This document shows, piece by piece, positions 5,420 through 38,067 of a stretch of 64,000 nt of DNA; within the stretch, counting starts at the first letter, position 1, and the number at the start of each line of letters is the position of its first letter. Below the pieces are notes generated by a model. That model saw only the letters and a list, made by a program, of their open reading frames with translations. It made no database searches and was not told the origin of the DNA. The stretch lies in NCBI RefSeq assembly GCF_001590905.1, contig NZ_BCTT01000012.1, positions 124,001 through 188,000 of the forward strand, given 5' to 3'. Both the position numbers and the translations under genes were made by a program. Source of the stretch: Serratia grimesii NBRC 13537 (lineage in GTDB: Bacteria > Pseudomonadota > Gammaproteobacteria > Enterobacterales > Enterobacteriaceae).

Positions 5420-6076
5420 TTACGCCACCAGACGAATCTCTGCGCCCTGTTCCGTTTTGTGCACGGCGATCTGCTCAAGCGATGTCAGCAGCAAATCGAC
5501 CTGATCCCGTTTTGGTGCATCGGCAGGTGCATTGACTGCAATCACCTGGCAACCCGCAGCCAAGCCAGAAAGAATACCGGCAGCAGCATCTTCAACCACA
5601 ACGCAATCCTGCGGCGCCAAGCCGAGACGTTCAGCGCCCAACAGATACGCATCCGGCTGCGGTTTGCCATGTTTTACCTGTTCAGCAGTAATGAAAACTT
5701 CTGGCTCTGGCAAACCCCCTGCGCGACGGCGAGCGGTAGCGACCGGGATAGAGCCGGAGGTAACGATCGCCCACGGAATATCGAGTTGGTCCAACCGCGC
5801 CAGCAACGCCGCGGCCCCAGGCAGCGCAGTCACGCCATCGGTGTCCTGTGCTTCTACTTGCTCCAACAGCAAGAACTCTTGCTGAATAGCGTCCTCACTT
5901 TCACCCGGCATAAAGTGACGCAACGAGGTAATGGCCTGTTTACCGTGAATAAAATCCAGTACGTCCTGCGGATTAATGCCGCGGCGTGTGGCCCAATTGA
6001 TCCAGGCGCGCTCTACCGCCGGCAACGAATCCACCAACGTCCCATCAAGATCGAACAGAAAACCCTTACACTCCAC
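5420..6076 (-). CDS. hxpA: HAD-family sugar phosphatase HxpA (YfbT)
   Basis: The 218-residue protein is a haloacid dehalogenase-type phosphatase. Motif I is FDLDGTLVDS at residues 8-17 with the nucleophilic Asp, motif II is the Ser in IVTSGS, and motif IV is VVEDAAAG. E. coli YfbT acts on hexitol and hexose phosphates, and its length of 216 residues is nearly the same. It follows yfbU on the same strand with a 16-base gap, which suggests cotranscription, and it has a strong terminator. Confidence 0.93.
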   Translation of the reverse strand: MECKGFLFDLDGTLVDSLPAVERAWINWATRRGINPQDVLDFIHGKQAITSLRHFMPGESEDAIQQEFLLLEQVEAQDTDGVTALPGAAALLARLDQLDIPWAIVTSGSIPVATARRRAGGLPEPEVFITAEQVKHGKPQPDAYLLGAERLGLAPQDCVVVEDAAAGILSGLAAGCQVIAVNAPADAPKRDQVDLLLTSLEQIAVHKTEQGAEIRLVA

Positions 6077-6092
6077 AGGAAACCTCTTTTAT

Positions 6093-6587
6093 TCAGGCAT
6101 TGATAATTTGCGCTATCTCAACGGCGCTCAAATGATATTGGCGTGGGCATGACAGCCAGATCGCCAGCATACGCTGGTACTTTTCCCACATTTTGGTTTG
6201 GGCGTTAAAGCCGTGGCTGCCGGAATCGAAATGAGTATAACGCCCCTCGGTATTAACCAGGAAACGCACGTAGCTCAAATGACGTGCTTCGGTGGCAGCG
6301 TCAAAACCGAGAAACGCCAGTCGACGTGCCTCAATCCCCTGTTTTTCCTTCAGGTTATCCCAGGAAACCTGCAATGCATGGTGCATTTCCATCACATTGA
6401 TAATGGTGCGGCACACGTCTTCGCTCATTTCACCAAAATCGCGGTCCAGTTCGCGCATCTGTAGGCCGAAACCGCGTTCGATAATGGTCTGCAGGCGACG
6501 GTAACGTTCAGCGTTATCCGGATCAAGCAGGGTCATCATCTTGTATTGGTTTGACAGGATTAGCCGTTGAGCGTGGGTCATTTCCAT
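6093..6587 (-). CDS. yfbU: YfbU family protein
   Basis: The 164-residue cytoplasmic protein matches E. coli YfbU over its full length, for example YKMMTLLDP near the start and [17 protein letters not shown] near the end. Its function is not established; in E. coli it has been linked to cell death after DNA stress. Two adjacent ATG codons lie at 6590 and 6587; the second gives the E. coli start MEMT and the better spacing from the GAGGAA ribosome binding site. It is upstream of hxpA. Confidence 0.95.
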
Positions 6588-6698
6588 CATAATTTCCTCG
6601 ATAAATTGCTTATGGCGGAAGCATCGCACAGCGCAATATCGCAGGAAATCACAACTCACCGGTTCTTTGATTTAAACCGGGGTTATTGGTCACAACAG

Positions 6699-6730
6699 TA
6701 AAAAGGCCGCTGAAGAATGCGGCCATTTTT
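6699..6730. terminator. Bidirectional terminator after yfbV
   Basis: The stem GGCCGC/GCGGCC with loop TGAAGAAT is flanked by an A-run on the left and ATTTTT on the right. It lies 5 bases beyond the yfbV stop codon and should stop transcription on the minus strand before yfbU. Confidence 0.85.
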
Positions 6731-6734
6731 GATG

Positions 6735-7190
6735 TTACAGATCATCCAGGAAGGTTTTATCCAACTGCTTGAAGGCGCGTTTCAGCAGATCCGCCAATGC
6801 CTGATAGGTCGGCGTGCCTTCTACCGGCGCAACCGCCTGTCCGGCTTCCGTCAGCTTGTTACGCACTTCGTGGAACCATTGCAACAGCGTTGGCGGCAAT
6901 GGTGTGATCGAACGACGACCTAACCACCACAAACCTTGCATTGGCATGCTACAGGCGAACAATGCCGTGGCAATGGCCGGACCTAACTGACCACCAAGGG
7001 CAATCTGCCAGGTCAGGGTAAACACCGCCAGCGGCGGCATAAAGCGGACGGCAAAACGGGTGGCACTCGCAACGCGATTCTCCGGAAAGACCGGAGCCAG
7101 ACGTTTGTCTGACGGCCAGGTTTTCATATAATGCTGCCCGCGCTGGAATACCTGAAACCAGCTTACGGAACCGGACGGTTTGCTCGTCAT
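6735..7190 (-). CDS. yfbV: UPF0208 inner-membrane protein YfbV
   Basis: The 151-residue protein has two hydrophobic segments near residues 45-85 ([19 protein letters not shown] and the following stretch) and a soluble C-terminal part. It equals E. coli YfbV in length, and YfbV has been reported to affect chromosome macrodomain insulation. The start [15 protein letters not shown] was chosen by alignment to E. coli YfbV; the next in-frame start upstream adds 15 residues without a counterpart. It is divergent from ackA. Confidence 0.93.
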
Positions 7191-7545
7191 CACGTACCTC
7201 AACGTCACAAAGAAAAATAAGGGCACGGCAAACACAATACTAAAAAATTTGAAGCTTTAAATTTATTTTGTGTTTGCCTCAGGCTATCGGTATCCTAAGC
7301 CGGCCTTTTGGCCGGTAGAAGATGACAAGAATTCTGTCAACTTTTAGCCCTATAAAAATCAAGATTACTTAAACCGCAGAGAAATCATCGGTTTTTTCAT
7401 CATCATGTGGTTTGTGCAATTCACATGATGTTAATCATAAATGTCAACGGCATTATGCGCTACGCTTGTTGTCTGATTGACGATTAATTCACCACGTGTT
7501 TTGGTCTTTCCTTTAACAACACGAACTATTTAAGTAGGTACTTCC
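7191..7545. promoter_or_regulatory. ackA promoter and leader region
   Basis: The 355-bp gap between divergent yfbV and ackA holds a CCGGCC-TTTT-GGCCGG hairpin at 7300-7315. It also holds a perfect 9-bp inverted repeat, CATCATGTG (7401-7409) and CACATGATG (7422-7430), with a 12-bp spacer. The repeat looks like an operator, but its spacing does not fit a CRP site. No coding sequence was found. Confidence 0.5.
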
Positions 7546-34652: not shown

Positions 34653-36170
34653 ATGGATACCTGGATGTACTTATCTCAAGGGTTCGAAGTGGCACTGGTG
34701 CCACAGAACCTGATTATCGCCCTGATTGGCTGCTTCGTTGGCACAATTGTCGGCTTGCTGCCGGGGTTAGGGCCAATCAACGGCGTGGCAATCCTGTTGC
34801 CACTGGCGTTTGCCCTTAAGCTACCGGCCGAATCTGCACTGATCCTGCTGGCAACGGTGTACATCGGCTGTGAATACGGCGGTCGTATCTCCTCAATACT
34901 GCTCAACGTCCCGGGTGATGCCGCAGCAATCATGACCGCACTGGACGGCTACCCGATGGCGCAGCAAGGCCGTGCCGGTGTGGCACTGTCGATCTCGGCG
35001 GTCAGCTCCTTTACCGGTTCACTCATTGCTATCGGCGGGATTATCCTGTTCGCTCCCCTGCTGGCACGCTGGTCGCTGGCGTTCGGCCCAGCCGAATACT
35101 TTGCCCTGATGGTGTTCGCTATTGCCTGCCTGGGTAGCATGATGAGCCAAAACCCTCTGAAATCGCTGCTGGCGGCGCTGATTGGTCTGGGACTGGCAAC
35201 GGTCGGGGTAGACGCTAACACAGGTGTTTATCGCTTCACCTTCGACAGCATCCACCTCTCCGATGGTGTGCAATTCATCGTGGTCGTTATCGGTCTGTTC
35301 TCGGTCAGTGAAATTCTGTTGATGCTGGAAAGCACCAGCGGCGGACAAAAACTGGTGCGCAAAACCGGTCGGTTATTGTTCAACCGCAAAGAGGCCGCTC
35401 AGTGCGTTGGCCCAACATTGCGCTCTTCCGTGGTGGGGTTCTTTGTCGGCATTCTGCCGGGTGCCGGCGCAACAATTGCCAGCGCACTCACATACATGAC
35501 CGAAAAGAAAATCAGCGGCAACAGCGAAACCTTCGGTAAAGGGGACATTCGTGGTGTCGCAGCGCCAGAGGCAGCCAACAACGCTTCAGCCTGTGGCTCA
35601 TTCATCCCTATGTTAACGCTGGGTGTTCCTGGTTCCGGCACCACTGCGGTCATGATGGGCGCACTGACGCTGTACAACATCACCCCCGGCCCGGCAATGT
35701 TCACCGAACAGCCGGATATTGTCTGGGGGCTGATCGCCGCACTGCTGATTGCCAACGTCATTCTGTTGATCATGAACCTGCCGTTGGTGGGTCTGTTCAC
35801 CCGCATGCTGACCATTCCACTGTGGTTCCTGGTACCGGCGATTGCTGCCGTATCCGCGGTGGGCGTATACGCCGTACACAGCACGACCTTTGACCTGCTG
35901 TTGATGATCGGACTCGGGGTGTTTGGTTATATCTTGAGGAAAATGCATTTCCCGATGTCACCGCTCATTCTGGGTTTCGTATTGGGAGAGATGTTAGAAC
36001 AAAACCTGCGCCGAGCGCTGTCAATCAGCAACGGAGAGTTTGGCATCTTGTGGAGCAGCAGTATCGCGCAAACACTGCTGGTATTGGCGGTATCTGTATT
36101 GGTGCTGCCACCTTTGCTGCGTAAATTGCGTAAACGCCGTATGTCGGCGGAAGCGGCTAAAGCCGAATAG
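34653..36170 (+). CDS. tctA: Tricarboxylate transporter large membrane subunit TctA
   Basis: The 505-residue protein has about twelve helices. It contains the two glycine-rich family motifs LLPGLGPINGVAILLPLAFA and GILPGAGATIASALTYM, and LGVPGSGTTAVMMGAL. It forms the Na+-coupled transport channel with TctB. Two adjacent ATG codons occur at 34650 and 34653; the second gives MDTWMYLSQGF, the Salmonella start. A strong terminator follows. Confidence 0.95.
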   Translation: MDTWMYLSQGFEVALVPQNLIIALIGCFVGTIVGLLPGLGPINGVAILLPLAFALKLPAESALILLATVYIGCEYGGRISSILLNVPGDAAAIMTALDGYPMAQQGRAGVALSISAVSSFTGSLIAIGGIILFAPLLARWSLAFGPAEYFALMVFAIACLGSMMSQNPLKSLLAALIGLGLATVGVDANTGVYRFTFDSIHLSDGVQFIVVVIGLFSVSEILLMLESTSGGQKLVRKTGRLLFNRKEAAQCVGPTLRSSVVGFFVGILPGAGATIASALTYMTEKKISGNSETFGKGDIRGVAAPEAANNASACGSFIPMLTLGVPGSGTTAVMMGALTLYNITPGPAMFTEQPDIVWGLIAALLIANVILLIMNLPLVGLFTRMLTIPLWFLVPAIAAVSAVGVYAVHSTTFDLLLMIGLGVFGYILRKMHFPMSPLILGFVLGEMLEQNLRRALSISNGEFGILWSSSIAQTLLVLAVSVLVLPPLLRKLRKRRMSAEAAKAE

Positions 36171-36173
36171 GTA

Positions 36174-36205
36174 AAAAGGGCGGGTTAATCACCCGCCCTT
36201 TTCAT
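36174..36205. terminator. Terminator between tctA and the acetyltransferase
   Basis: AAAAGGGCGGGT (36174-36185) pairs with ACCCGCCCTTTT (36191-36202) around TAATC, followed by CATTT. It serves both convergent genes. Confidence 0.9.
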
Positions 36206-36216
36206 TTATCTGATCA

Positions 36217-36846
36217 CTAACGCTCAATACCTCTTACCACCCGCTCAAGTCCCGTAATATCATCACTGGCCAGCAAGGGTTGCACACAAGCAAAATCCTC
36301 GGCTGACAAATCATAAATACGCAAAGCAAGTAATCGGGCAATGATCTGCGGGGTAAATCGCTGCTTTATCGGTCGTGCCGGATTACCGCCTACAATGGTG
36401 TAAGGCTCAACGTCCGCCGTCACAATGCTACCTGCGGCAACAACCGCCCCTTCCCCAATGGTCACGCCCGGCATTAACATCGCCCGCATACCTATCCAGC
36501 AGCCATCTCCCAACCGGGTATCCCCTTTCGGCCGATAGGCAGCCTGGATGCTTTCCATCATCGGGTACAAGCAAAACCAATCGGTGCGGTGGGTATGGTT
36601 CCCCCCCATCAGGATTACGGCTTCAGCGGCAATACAGACATAATCGCCAATCAGTAATTGGTCTATCGTCCCGAGCGGTTGCCACTGCTGGCTGACCGCA
36701 TCGCCGTGCAAATAGCGCACCACAGAGCGTTCAAAGCCATCATCCAGGTAGTCACTGTAATAGCTGTGGGTCCCCTTGACGATAATGTTGGGGTTGGTTA
36801 CCGTTTGGTGCAGCAATTCTGTTTTTGACCAGTGTTTTTCAGTCAT
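36217..36846 (-). CDS. CatB/Vat-type xenobiotic O-acetyltransferase
   Basis: The 209-residue left-handed beta-helix (hexapeptide) acetyltransferase resembles type B chloramphenicol and streptogramin A acetyltransferases. The catalytic His is H86 in [15 protein letters not shown], the hexapeptide repeats run from about residue 112 ([19 protein letters not shown]), and the family ending [16 protein letters not shown] is present. It could use acetyl-CoA to inactivate chloramphenicol, a streptogramin or a related hydroxyl compound; the real substrate is unknown. Its weak AAGAG site lies in a hairpin, and the leader holds two tiny reading frames. It is downstream of an EamA transporter on the same strand. 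Confidence 0.88.
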
Positions 36847-36882
36847 GGCGTTTTCTCTTGAATCTGTTACAAGAGCCACAGC

Positions 36883-36912
36883 CTACTGTCTGTGGCAGTG
36901 TTTTTCGGTCAT
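36883..36912 (-). CDS. Tiny leader frame 2 (MTEKHCHRQ)
   Basis: Nine codons then TAG. The first 17 bases differ from the acetyltransferase start at one position, giving MTEKHC against MTEKHW. The start codon lies in the loop of hairpin A, and the ribosome binding site is poor. It may be a duplication remnant, not a translated peptide. Confidence 0.25.
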   Translation of the reverse strand: MTEKHCHRQ

Positions 36913-36926
36913 AAAACACTGCCCGG

Positions 36927-36968
36927 TTAAGCGATTAACGCCCGTTTTAATCTTGGGTTGTTAGTCAT
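36927..36968 (-). CDS. Tiny leader frame 1 (MTNNPRLKRALIA)
   Basis: Thirteen codons then TAA, behind GGAGG with a 5-base spacer, 35 bases after the stop codon of the EamA gene. The RLKR stretch resembles the Arg/Lys-x-Arg/Lys motif at which macrolides arrest ribosomes in some erm leader peptides. It could also be a chance frame or a remnant of a longer gene. It is the best-initiated tiny frame in the region. Confidence 0.4.
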   Translation of the reverse strand: MTNNPRLKRALIA

Positions 36969-37002
36969 TAATGCCTCCAAATTTCGGCGTAAGGGTAACA
37001 AA

Positions 37003-37998
37003 TCACGCCTCGACCGTCTTGCTCTTCAGCATCAATACTCCGCCCATCACCAGCGCGCTACCCAGCAACTGTAACTGATTCATGTTTTCCCCCAGCAGGA
37101 AATAGGCGATCACCGCCGTGAATACCAGTTCCAGCGACAAAATCAGGTTAGCCACCGCCAGCGGCAAGGTTTTTAGGCTGATGTTGTACAAACCGAATCC
37201 CAACAACGTCGGGCCAGCCGCTAAAGTCAGCAGCAACAGCCAACCGCGCCACTCGATCCCCTGAACGCCCTGGGACAAGAACCACAACGAGCCGGTCATG
37301 CCATGAAATGCGGCCAGCGGATATAACGTCAGCGCAGCATTGAACACCCACTGATAGATCGCTGAAAAACCGAACACATACAAAATGGTATTCCATACCG
37401 GGTAATGACGTTCTGTCGCCACCCGCCCACCCAACGTGTAGAGGGTATAACCAATGCCGGACAACATGCCCACCAGCAATCCCAACAAATTGAAATGGCT
37501 GTTGCCCATGCTGTCGCCGTTACTGACTAAGAAGCAGCCTCCCAGGCTGACCACAATCACCACTAATTGGCGCAGGCTCAGGCGTTCGCTGTACATCATC
37601 CAACCAAGGAACACGGTAAAACCGACTGAACAATACGTCAGGATGGTTGCCACCGACGCGCCGTTCAGCGCTACCGACAGTGTCCACAGGCTGTTGAACA
37701 CCGCCAGTAACAGGCCATAACAGGCATAAAATGGGACCTGTGAACGCTGTAAACGTGCCCACTCAGGCTTGAATAACAACAACACCGGCAATAATACCAG
37801 TGCAACCAGCGCTGCTCGCCAAAAGGCCAGCACAAAGGTCGGCAGGTGATAATACTCCGTAAGGACACGAATAATGATGGCGGTAAAAGCCAGTAGCATG
37901 GCGCTGATAATCGCGATCACATACCCCTGACTGCTGCCTTGTAACAGACGCGCGCCCGGGAGAACCGGCCGGGCTGAAACCCCTGATGGTAATGACAT
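37003..37998 (-). CDS. EamA/DMT-family transporter next to a MocR regulator
   Basis: The 331-residue protein has ten predicted helices in two EamA repeats (GYVIAIISAMLLAFTAIIIRVL onward, and NLLGLLVGMLSGIGYTLYTLGGR onward). Its substrate is unknown. It is divergent from a MocR/PdxR-type regulator, with AAAGTGG direct repeats in the gap, so a pyridoxal-related or drug substrate is conceivable. The acetyltransferase lies 156 bp downstream on the same strand, with no terminator between, so the two may share a transcript. Several start codons are possible; ATG at 37998 is the longest. Confidence 0.85.
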   Translation of the reverse strand: MSLPSGVSARPVLPGARLLQGSSQGYVIAIISAMLLAFTAIIIRVLTEYYHLPTFVLAFWRAALVALVLLPVLLLFKPEWARLQRSQVPFYACYGLLLAVFNSLWTLSVALNGASVATILTYCSVGFTVFLGWMMYSERLSLRQLVVIVVSLGGCFLVSNGDSMGNSHFNLLGLLVGMLSGIGYTLYTLGGRVATERHYPVWNTILYVFGFSAIYQWVFNAALTLYPLAAFHGMTGSLWFLSQGVQGIEWRGWLLLLTLAAGPTLLGFGLYNISLKTLPLAVANLILSLELVFTAVIAYFLLGENMNQLQLLGSALVMGGVLMLKSKTVEA

Positions 37999-38067
37999 GA
38001 CACCCTCAAAAAACTGCGGTAATACACCCAGGCAGAGATTCTAACGCCACACAACTTTGCCACCAGA

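Follow-up and report, generated by a model that had tools for sequence, protein, structure and literature searches.

Introduction

In the translational attenuators of ermC, cat and cmlA, a short leader frame and alternative stems that hide or free a start codon precede a resistance-type gene. The cmlA leader is described as encoding 9 amino acids and being followed by two alternative stem-loops, with the Shine-Dalgarno (SD) sequence and the initiation codon sequestered (PMC8876359). Sensory upstream open reading frames (uORFs) also occur in Gram-negative bacteria, as with toiL of topAI-yjhQ in E. coli; there the ribosome-binding site is concealed under repression, pairing to the target SD is made by the uORF itself, and stalling is effective at several positions (PMC12121999). 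The same paper describes uORFs before the Gram-positive resistance genes vga(A) and vmlR, which sense lincosamides, streptogramin A and pleuromutilins and in which stalls are likely at start codons (PMC12121999).

The locus described here lies in a 64,000-nucleotide stretch of the Serratia grimesii NBRC 13537 genome, hereafter the window, and follows the ermC, cat and cmlA plan ahead of a CatB/Vat-type acetyltransferase gene; its switch is predicted to work as those attenuators do. Unlike those systems, it has a leader, with the motif P-[LR]-L-K-Q-P-R-[IV], that differs from the ones known to us, a start codon region that forms a fourth segment resembling the 5' arm of one hairpin (B), and a loop-loop pairing that is conserved outside the window's clade. 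In contrast to toiL, a separate switch lies 3' of the peptide, and whereas vga(A) and vmlR uORFs likely stall at start codons, the conserved site here is codon 12. We know of no precedent for the peptide motif or for the start-codon mimicry. Our literature searches, outside which lay most subscription papers and all preprints, returned no report of such a leader in titles and abstract openings, and none of the strings LLKQPR, PLLKQP, NNPRLKR and LKQPRI in the texts searched. We put at roughly three in four the probability that a ribosome-dependent translational attenuator controls the acetyltransferase.

Results

Layout of the leader region

A preliminary description of this DNA had drawn a leader frame with a GGAGG site and three hairpins, A, B and C, with overlapping arms, and each of these elements is present where it was drawn. 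The features of the locus are as follows.

37998-37003, minus strand: EamA transporter gene, the upstream neighbour; the leader sits between this gene and the acetyltransferase gene.
36974..36978, minus strand: leader SD sequence GGAGG; a purine-rich SD-like run also lies 5' of the frame in same-genus relatives.
36927..36968, minus strand: leader peptide frame MTNNPRLKRALIA (DNA ATGACTAACAACCCAAGATTAAAACGGGCGTTAATCGCTTAA), 13 codons plus TAA, conserved in the genus and before homologues.
36933..36935, minus strand: Ile12 codon, which in the alignment corresponds to the family's I/V residue, where strong conservation of the peptide ends.
36894..36923, minus strand: hairpin A (segments 1:2), 11 bp, arms 36923-36913/36904-36894, from folding and a compensatory change.
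36875..36896, minus strand: hairpin B (segments 2:3), GCCACAG/CTGTGGC, 7 bp, putatively anti-sequestering, arms 36896-36890/36881-36875, from covariation.
36875..36880, minus strand: segment 3, TGTGGC, whose partner is the 5' arm of B or the start codon region.
36855..36875, minus strand: hairpin C, 6 bp, over the acetyltransferase SD AAGAG, arms 36875-36870/36860-36855, nested in helix D.
36844..36849, minus strand: segment 4, GCCATG, the acetyltransferase start codon region, which can pair with segment 3 as helix D.
36217..36846, minus strand: CatB/Vat-type hexapeptide acetyltransferase, 209 aa, from profile and solved-chain scores.

Hairpins A and B overlap by 3 nt and hairpins B and C by 1 nt. 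The region 36990-36820 folds at -45.4 kcal/mol against a shuffle mean of -33.2 (sd 3.1; z -3.90), and 0 of 200 dinucleotide shuffles folded as well. The start-region GCCATG, which had gone unnoticed, is an alternative partner for the 3' arm of B. A four-segment switch fits this RNA: A shares bases with B, and the 3' arm of B, GUGGC, takes part in B or pairs with GCCAUG as alternatives. Rfam gave no match over the element in a search of 36000-38000, where three sub-threshold matches all fell at 36084-36241, and returned only a tRNA in five relatives.

The leader peptide in Serratia and beyond

Of 30 same-genus genomes searched at the DNA level, among them that of the window, 26 gave a match; 23 of these carry the whole region (L001-L023) and three the EamA end only (L024-L026). 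One of the latter retains a remnant of the acetyltransferase gene; in L024 the leader and much of the gene are gone by deletion. The leader frame, with a clear SD in the Serratia loci, is kept in 23/23 loci with the full region, synonymous changes being present, and this conservation is far above chance. The variants found are MTNNPRLKRALIA, MTHNPRLKRALIA, MIDNPRLKRALIA, MTNNPRLKKAIIA, MINNPRLKKAIIA, MMNNPRLKRALIA and MNNPRLKRALIA. Seven distinct Serratia-type cores among L029-L143, one of them from Xenorhabdus, show synonymous variation only at codons 4 to 8 and 10 and variation of both kinds at codons 9 (R/K) and 11 (L/I); codons 12 and 13 are invariant.

The leader and switch are not confined to Serratia. 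A homologue of the acetyltransferase at E<=1e-40 was found in 30 of 295 genomes of the order by protein search, of the 379 relatives met in a scan of genome contigs we retained the best 80, and homologues of 60% identity or more gave 95 distinct upstream regions. A related peptide (loose core or Serratia form) is present in 73 of the 95; the loose core alone occurs in 71, against a mean of 0.17 (maximum 1) over 30 shuffle rounds. Nine further upstream regions have an AYLK[QR]P form, 12/95 have no recognisable leader, and in one (L109, Vibrio sinaloensis) a stop codon interrupts the core, with the RNA arms retained. The family consensus of the core is P-[LR]-L-K-Q-P-R-[IV], and core frames include MKLIPLLKQPRIH (Vibrio and others), MLINPLLKQPRIA (Cedecea), MKRIPLLNQPRIS (Photorhabdus), MINNPLLKKPRIARG (Wohlfahrtiimonas and plasmids), MIKNNPLLKQPRVAAGDLF and others. 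The Photorhabdus leaders have no evident SD. The Serratia and Vibrio peptides align without gaps and match at P5, L7, K8 and I12, and the residue after the I/V position, which is the last strongly conserved one, may be A, H, S, Q, T, Y or D.

Across 54 strict-motif cores, 4 Pro, 6 Leu and 6 Arg codons are used. This variety of synonymous codons indicates that selection acts on the peptide, and since the codons vary freely the leader would be read as a nascent chain and not as codons. Homologues of lower identity (L044-L058, 39-54%) all lack the motif. Aeromonas-type homologues (L044-L051, 50-54% identity) have a different conserved leader, for example MQRPRLPQALGCSTLCVPRLLVWIY, which lies 48-54 nt before the gene and ends VPR[LM]LVWIY. 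In L059, L060 and L107 a TATAAT stops 6 nt short of the leader ATG, so close that the mRNA may begin almost directly with the leader.

The motif is specific to this gene context. A degenerate DNA pattern for PLLKQPR[IV], outside which the Serratia form falls, matched 11/295 genomes of the order, against 2 for the pattern read backwards. Ten of the 11 matches lie directly before a homologous acetyltransferase and the eleventh before a truncated copy (L149, genome G248), where leader and spacer are retained. In a sample of the class the pattern occurred in 2/369 genomes (backwards, 1), both matches being unrelated: one lies within a long frame and the other in a 52-residue frame without such a gene. 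Scanning with a covariance model, R1, gave matches in 6/295 genomes, five of them at the acetyltransferase; the sixth (G103) was rejected as a false positive, a terminator after a gene read as enolase. Against 29 sources, R1 matched the window and L073 well and L107, L059 and L060 weakly (E 0.019-0.029), leaving the remaining 24 unmatched. No acetyltransferase protein of this kind was found in the viral contigs searched.

Helix B covaries clearly and the start-codon helix D partly

Same-genus clades differ in hairpin A, which reads GGCAGTG/CACTGCC in some and GGCCGTG/CACGGCC in others, a compensatory replacement of A-U by C-G. For the wider family we used alignment A3, which holds 32 related loci selected for the A/B/D layout and in which helix B occupies columns 46-51/66-71, the loop-loop pairing K columns 30-34/61-65 and helix D columns 66-74/96-106. 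In helix B, 94.3% of cells are paired and both sides change in 5/6 pairs. Taken together, B and K have 92.5% of cells paired and double changes in 8/11 pairs, against 30-37% of cells paired in slid controls; three measures exceeded all of 500 shuffles and the number of pairs with a double change was reached in 2/500, whereas the number of further pair types (462/500) was not above the shuffles. Most of K is mismatched within the clade of the window, outside which it is conserved.

Helix D has 88.5% of cells paired and double changes in 5/9 pairs (slid controls, 26-63%, with 62.9% still paired at slide -3). Of its five measures three exceed all 500 shuffles; the other two, pairs with a double change and further pair types, lie within the shuffled range (154/500 and 271/500, respectively). 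Unpaired cells are few in the six core pairs (3/192) and more frequent in the outer three (30/96), where most of the double changes also fall. At columns 46, 71 and 101, G-C-G becomes A-U-A together in six Photorhabdus sequences and one Providencia sequence, and in L095 the pair 47-70 is U-A and 70-102 is A-U; these joint changes represent few independent events, and in two loci A at column 101 occurs with C71 retained and no pairing there.

Hairpin A forms in 31/32 single-sequence folds, its 3' arm then overlapping the 5' arm of B by 1-6 nt, so that in these 31 loci the stems would be mutually exclusive, one of them hiding the downstream SD or start. RNAalifold alone recovered only B. The preliminary description had made hairpin C, over the SD, the main gate; we rejected this because C shrinks to 4 pairs in L065 and the 3' arm of B is the more conserved partner of the start codon. 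Another candidate, pairing of the 5' arm of A with early acetyltransferase codons (AAAACACTG), was attractive in the window and was discarded since it is lost in the marcescens-type clade. The attenuator-like layout that the same description had proposed, a conserved leader and alternative hairpins before the acetyltransferase, is borne out by the alignments, in which the peptide is conserved and the stems show covariation with compensatory changes.

Spacing between the I/V codon and the start codon

The distance from the I/V codon to the ATG was taken first from the 32 selected loci, where it is 85-92 nt, and then from all 79 distinct leader loci. In 49 of the 79 it is 80-95 nt (sd 2.63), and in the same 49 loci the distance from stop to ATG runs from 45 to 86 nt (sd 8.87). 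Thus in the window's spacing class the I/V codon is nearly fixed relative to the ATG while the stop moves. The other spacing classes, 17 loci at 60-71 nt and 13 at 166-332 nt, are uninformative on anchoring, because there the stop is fixed relative to the I/V codon. In L073 (Serratia silvae) the stop lies 208 nt from the ATG, compared with about 80 nt, and a palindromic-looking insert separates hairpin B and the switch from the SD.

Hairpin A starts 9-12 nt past the first base of the I/V codon in 23/32 loci (range 0-12). Footprint 3' ends are reported at +16 to +18 of start codons (PMC12121999). A ribosome with the I/V residue in the P site would extend some 15-17 nt further, and would therefore cover the base of A, which is shared with B.

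In the window, opening the region from -15 to +3 costs 9.3 kcal in the free RNA, 9.6 kcal when the RNA starts at +12 of the first base of Ile12 and 4.1 kcal when it starts at +15, and in the predicted structures B takes the place of the base of A and of D. Among 84 leader loci (79 distinct), we modelled the 66 distinct sequences with spacers of up to 120 nt, using energy calculations that cannot include K. The mean drop was 2.46 kcal, compared with 0.45 kcal for spacer shuffles (60 each), and modelled release reached p<=0.05 in only 30/66 sequences; the window itself has p 0.02. By group, this level was reached by 11/13 Serratia-type, 2/8 Photorhabdus, 7/17 short-spacer and 13/28 A/B/D loci, the last counted among those with computed frames. 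The short-spacer loci (Vibrio, Shewanella, Moritella and Aliivibrio; 51-62 nt from stop to ATG), ten of 17 of which fall short of p<=0.05, include L126, L127, L135, L136, L138 and L140, with drops of 5-10 kcal and p 0.00. In L126, L138 and L039 an apparent single hairpin extends from just past the stop to just before the SD.

The enzyme and its mobile relatives

CatB and Vat belong to the same hexapeptide acetyltransferase family, and the enzyme here scores below both NCBIfam cut-offs: the best profile is CatB (NF000490) with 162.9 bits against a cut-off of 350, and Vat (NF000311) gives 114.3 bits against 300. The closest solved chains are likewise CatB-type, with up to 143 bits (6pu9), and VatA gives about 92. 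The His of GNHTHRTDW, which we take to be catalytic, aligns with the His of GNQGHRTDW in 6pu9. By family membership the enzyme would act on a drug that targets the ribosome.

A 67% identical relative with the leader MINNPLLKKPRIARG is carried on plasmids, where it adjoins a MarR gene. On pKP85-1, the one large plasmid examined, it also adjoins an ABC-F-like gene (339.8 bits, below the cut-off of 380) near tet(X4). With coverage of at least 80%, a 781-bp segment that takes in leader and gene is present in 83 plasmid records and in 46/5,426 E. coli genomes, and the plasmid peptide MINNPLLKKPRIARG is identical in Wohlfahrtiimonas (L107, L120). In the K. pneumoniae plasmid pKP85-1 (L060) a three-codon frame, ATGAACAATTAA, follows GAGG and precedes the ABC-F-like gene at 5678-7291; it is possibly that gene's own drug-sensing leader.

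Discussion

The attenuator reading is well supported by the conservation and specificity of the peptide and reasonably by covariation and spacing. Our data consist of conservation, covariation, spacing and computed energies; that ribosomes arrest, where and with which drug they do so, and that the gene is thereby induced, we infer as follows. During normal translation the leader would be made and released, and hairpin A would form. A would then occupy the GCC that begins hairpin B, leaving the 3' arm of B, GUGGC, to pair with the start region GCCAUG; in this closed state the GUGGC/GCCAUG helix and hairpin C would together shut the acetyltransferase start. Arrest with Ile12 (I/V in the family) in the P site would place the ribosome over the base of A and free the GCC, whereupon B could form and the start codon would be released. 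A disturbance of translation, for which an antibiotic is the most likely cause, would thus probably switch on the gene. The likeliest trigger would be a ribosome-targeting drug that the enzyme acetylates, of the chloramphenicol or streptogramin A type. Stalling of the chloramphenicol type has a context with Ala, Ser or Thr at the penultimate position; such a context is not a family feature, A/S/T occurring anywhere in the core in 13/50 distinct leaders. For streptogramin A we sought a sequence context in PMC13410324, the accessible text of which mentions streptogramin B alone.

The use of a dedicated arrest peptide has to be weighed against a general translation-stress sensor. At least five classes of drug act on toiL, by stalling ribosomes at different codons (PMC12121999), and any slow or stalled leader ribosome might likewise open the RNA here, since a stall at or past codon 12 would act regardless of its cause. 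We nevertheless consider such a sensor unlikely: the core is conserved as amino acids with synonymous change free, the window-class RNA keeps its distance to the I/V codon and not to the stop, which points to one preferred site, and in the window a cut at +12 leaves the start closed whereas one at +15 releases it.

Release of translation might instead be a side effect, with intrinsic or Rho-dependent transcription attenuation as the main output, much as repression of translation leads to Rho termination at topAI (PMC12121999). This is improbable for the locus described here, where the conserved pairing involves the start codon and a consensus terminator scan of 36150-37150 found the minus strand free of terminator-like sites from the leader to the start of the gene.

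The preliminary description had also likened RLKR in the leader to the +x(+) motif arrested by macrolides, and within the window the likeness stands, R6-L7-K8 fitting the Arg/Lys-X-Arg/Lys motif at which ketolides mainly stall ribosomes (PMC8298421). It does not extend to the family, as R/K-x-R/K occurs in the core of only 8/50 distinct leaders, and a ribosome holding K8 or L7 in its P site would have its edge 12-15 nt short of the modelled release position. To our knowledge this acetyltransferase family does not act on macrolides, and we think it quite improbable that the leader belongs to the macrolide-arrest class. Least credible is a trp-type attenuator responding to an amino acid or to tRNA charging, which would share the four-segment layout and could draw on the AGA and CGG/CGA Arg codons of the Serratia leaders, codons that are rare in enterobacteria, but the leaders lack a run of any single amino acid, the codons for core residues vary over many synonyms across genera, and the family of the downstream gene is not a biosynthetic one.

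Returning to the translational attenuator, we tentatively suggest, as a more specific proposal that is somewhat less probable than even, that P-[LR]-L-K-Q-P-R-[IV] may be a new drug-dependent nascent-chain arrest motif, found in Serratia, Vibrio, Photorhabdus, Shewanella and others, which drives an RNA switch in which the 5' arm of B mimics the start region. Outside the window's clade the closed state would be a pseudoknotted three-helix fold consisting of A, the A-loop pairing GAACG/CGUUC and GUGGC with the start codon, and a relative of this element would be carried on plasmids of Enterobacteriaceae. If this is true, the leaders would form a widespread Gram-negative antibiotic-sensing family with an arrest motif unlike those known to us, and they would have a defined stall codon and toeprint position, at about 36920-36918. 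It would also suggest that CatB-related enzymes so far named only by similarity are drug-inducible.
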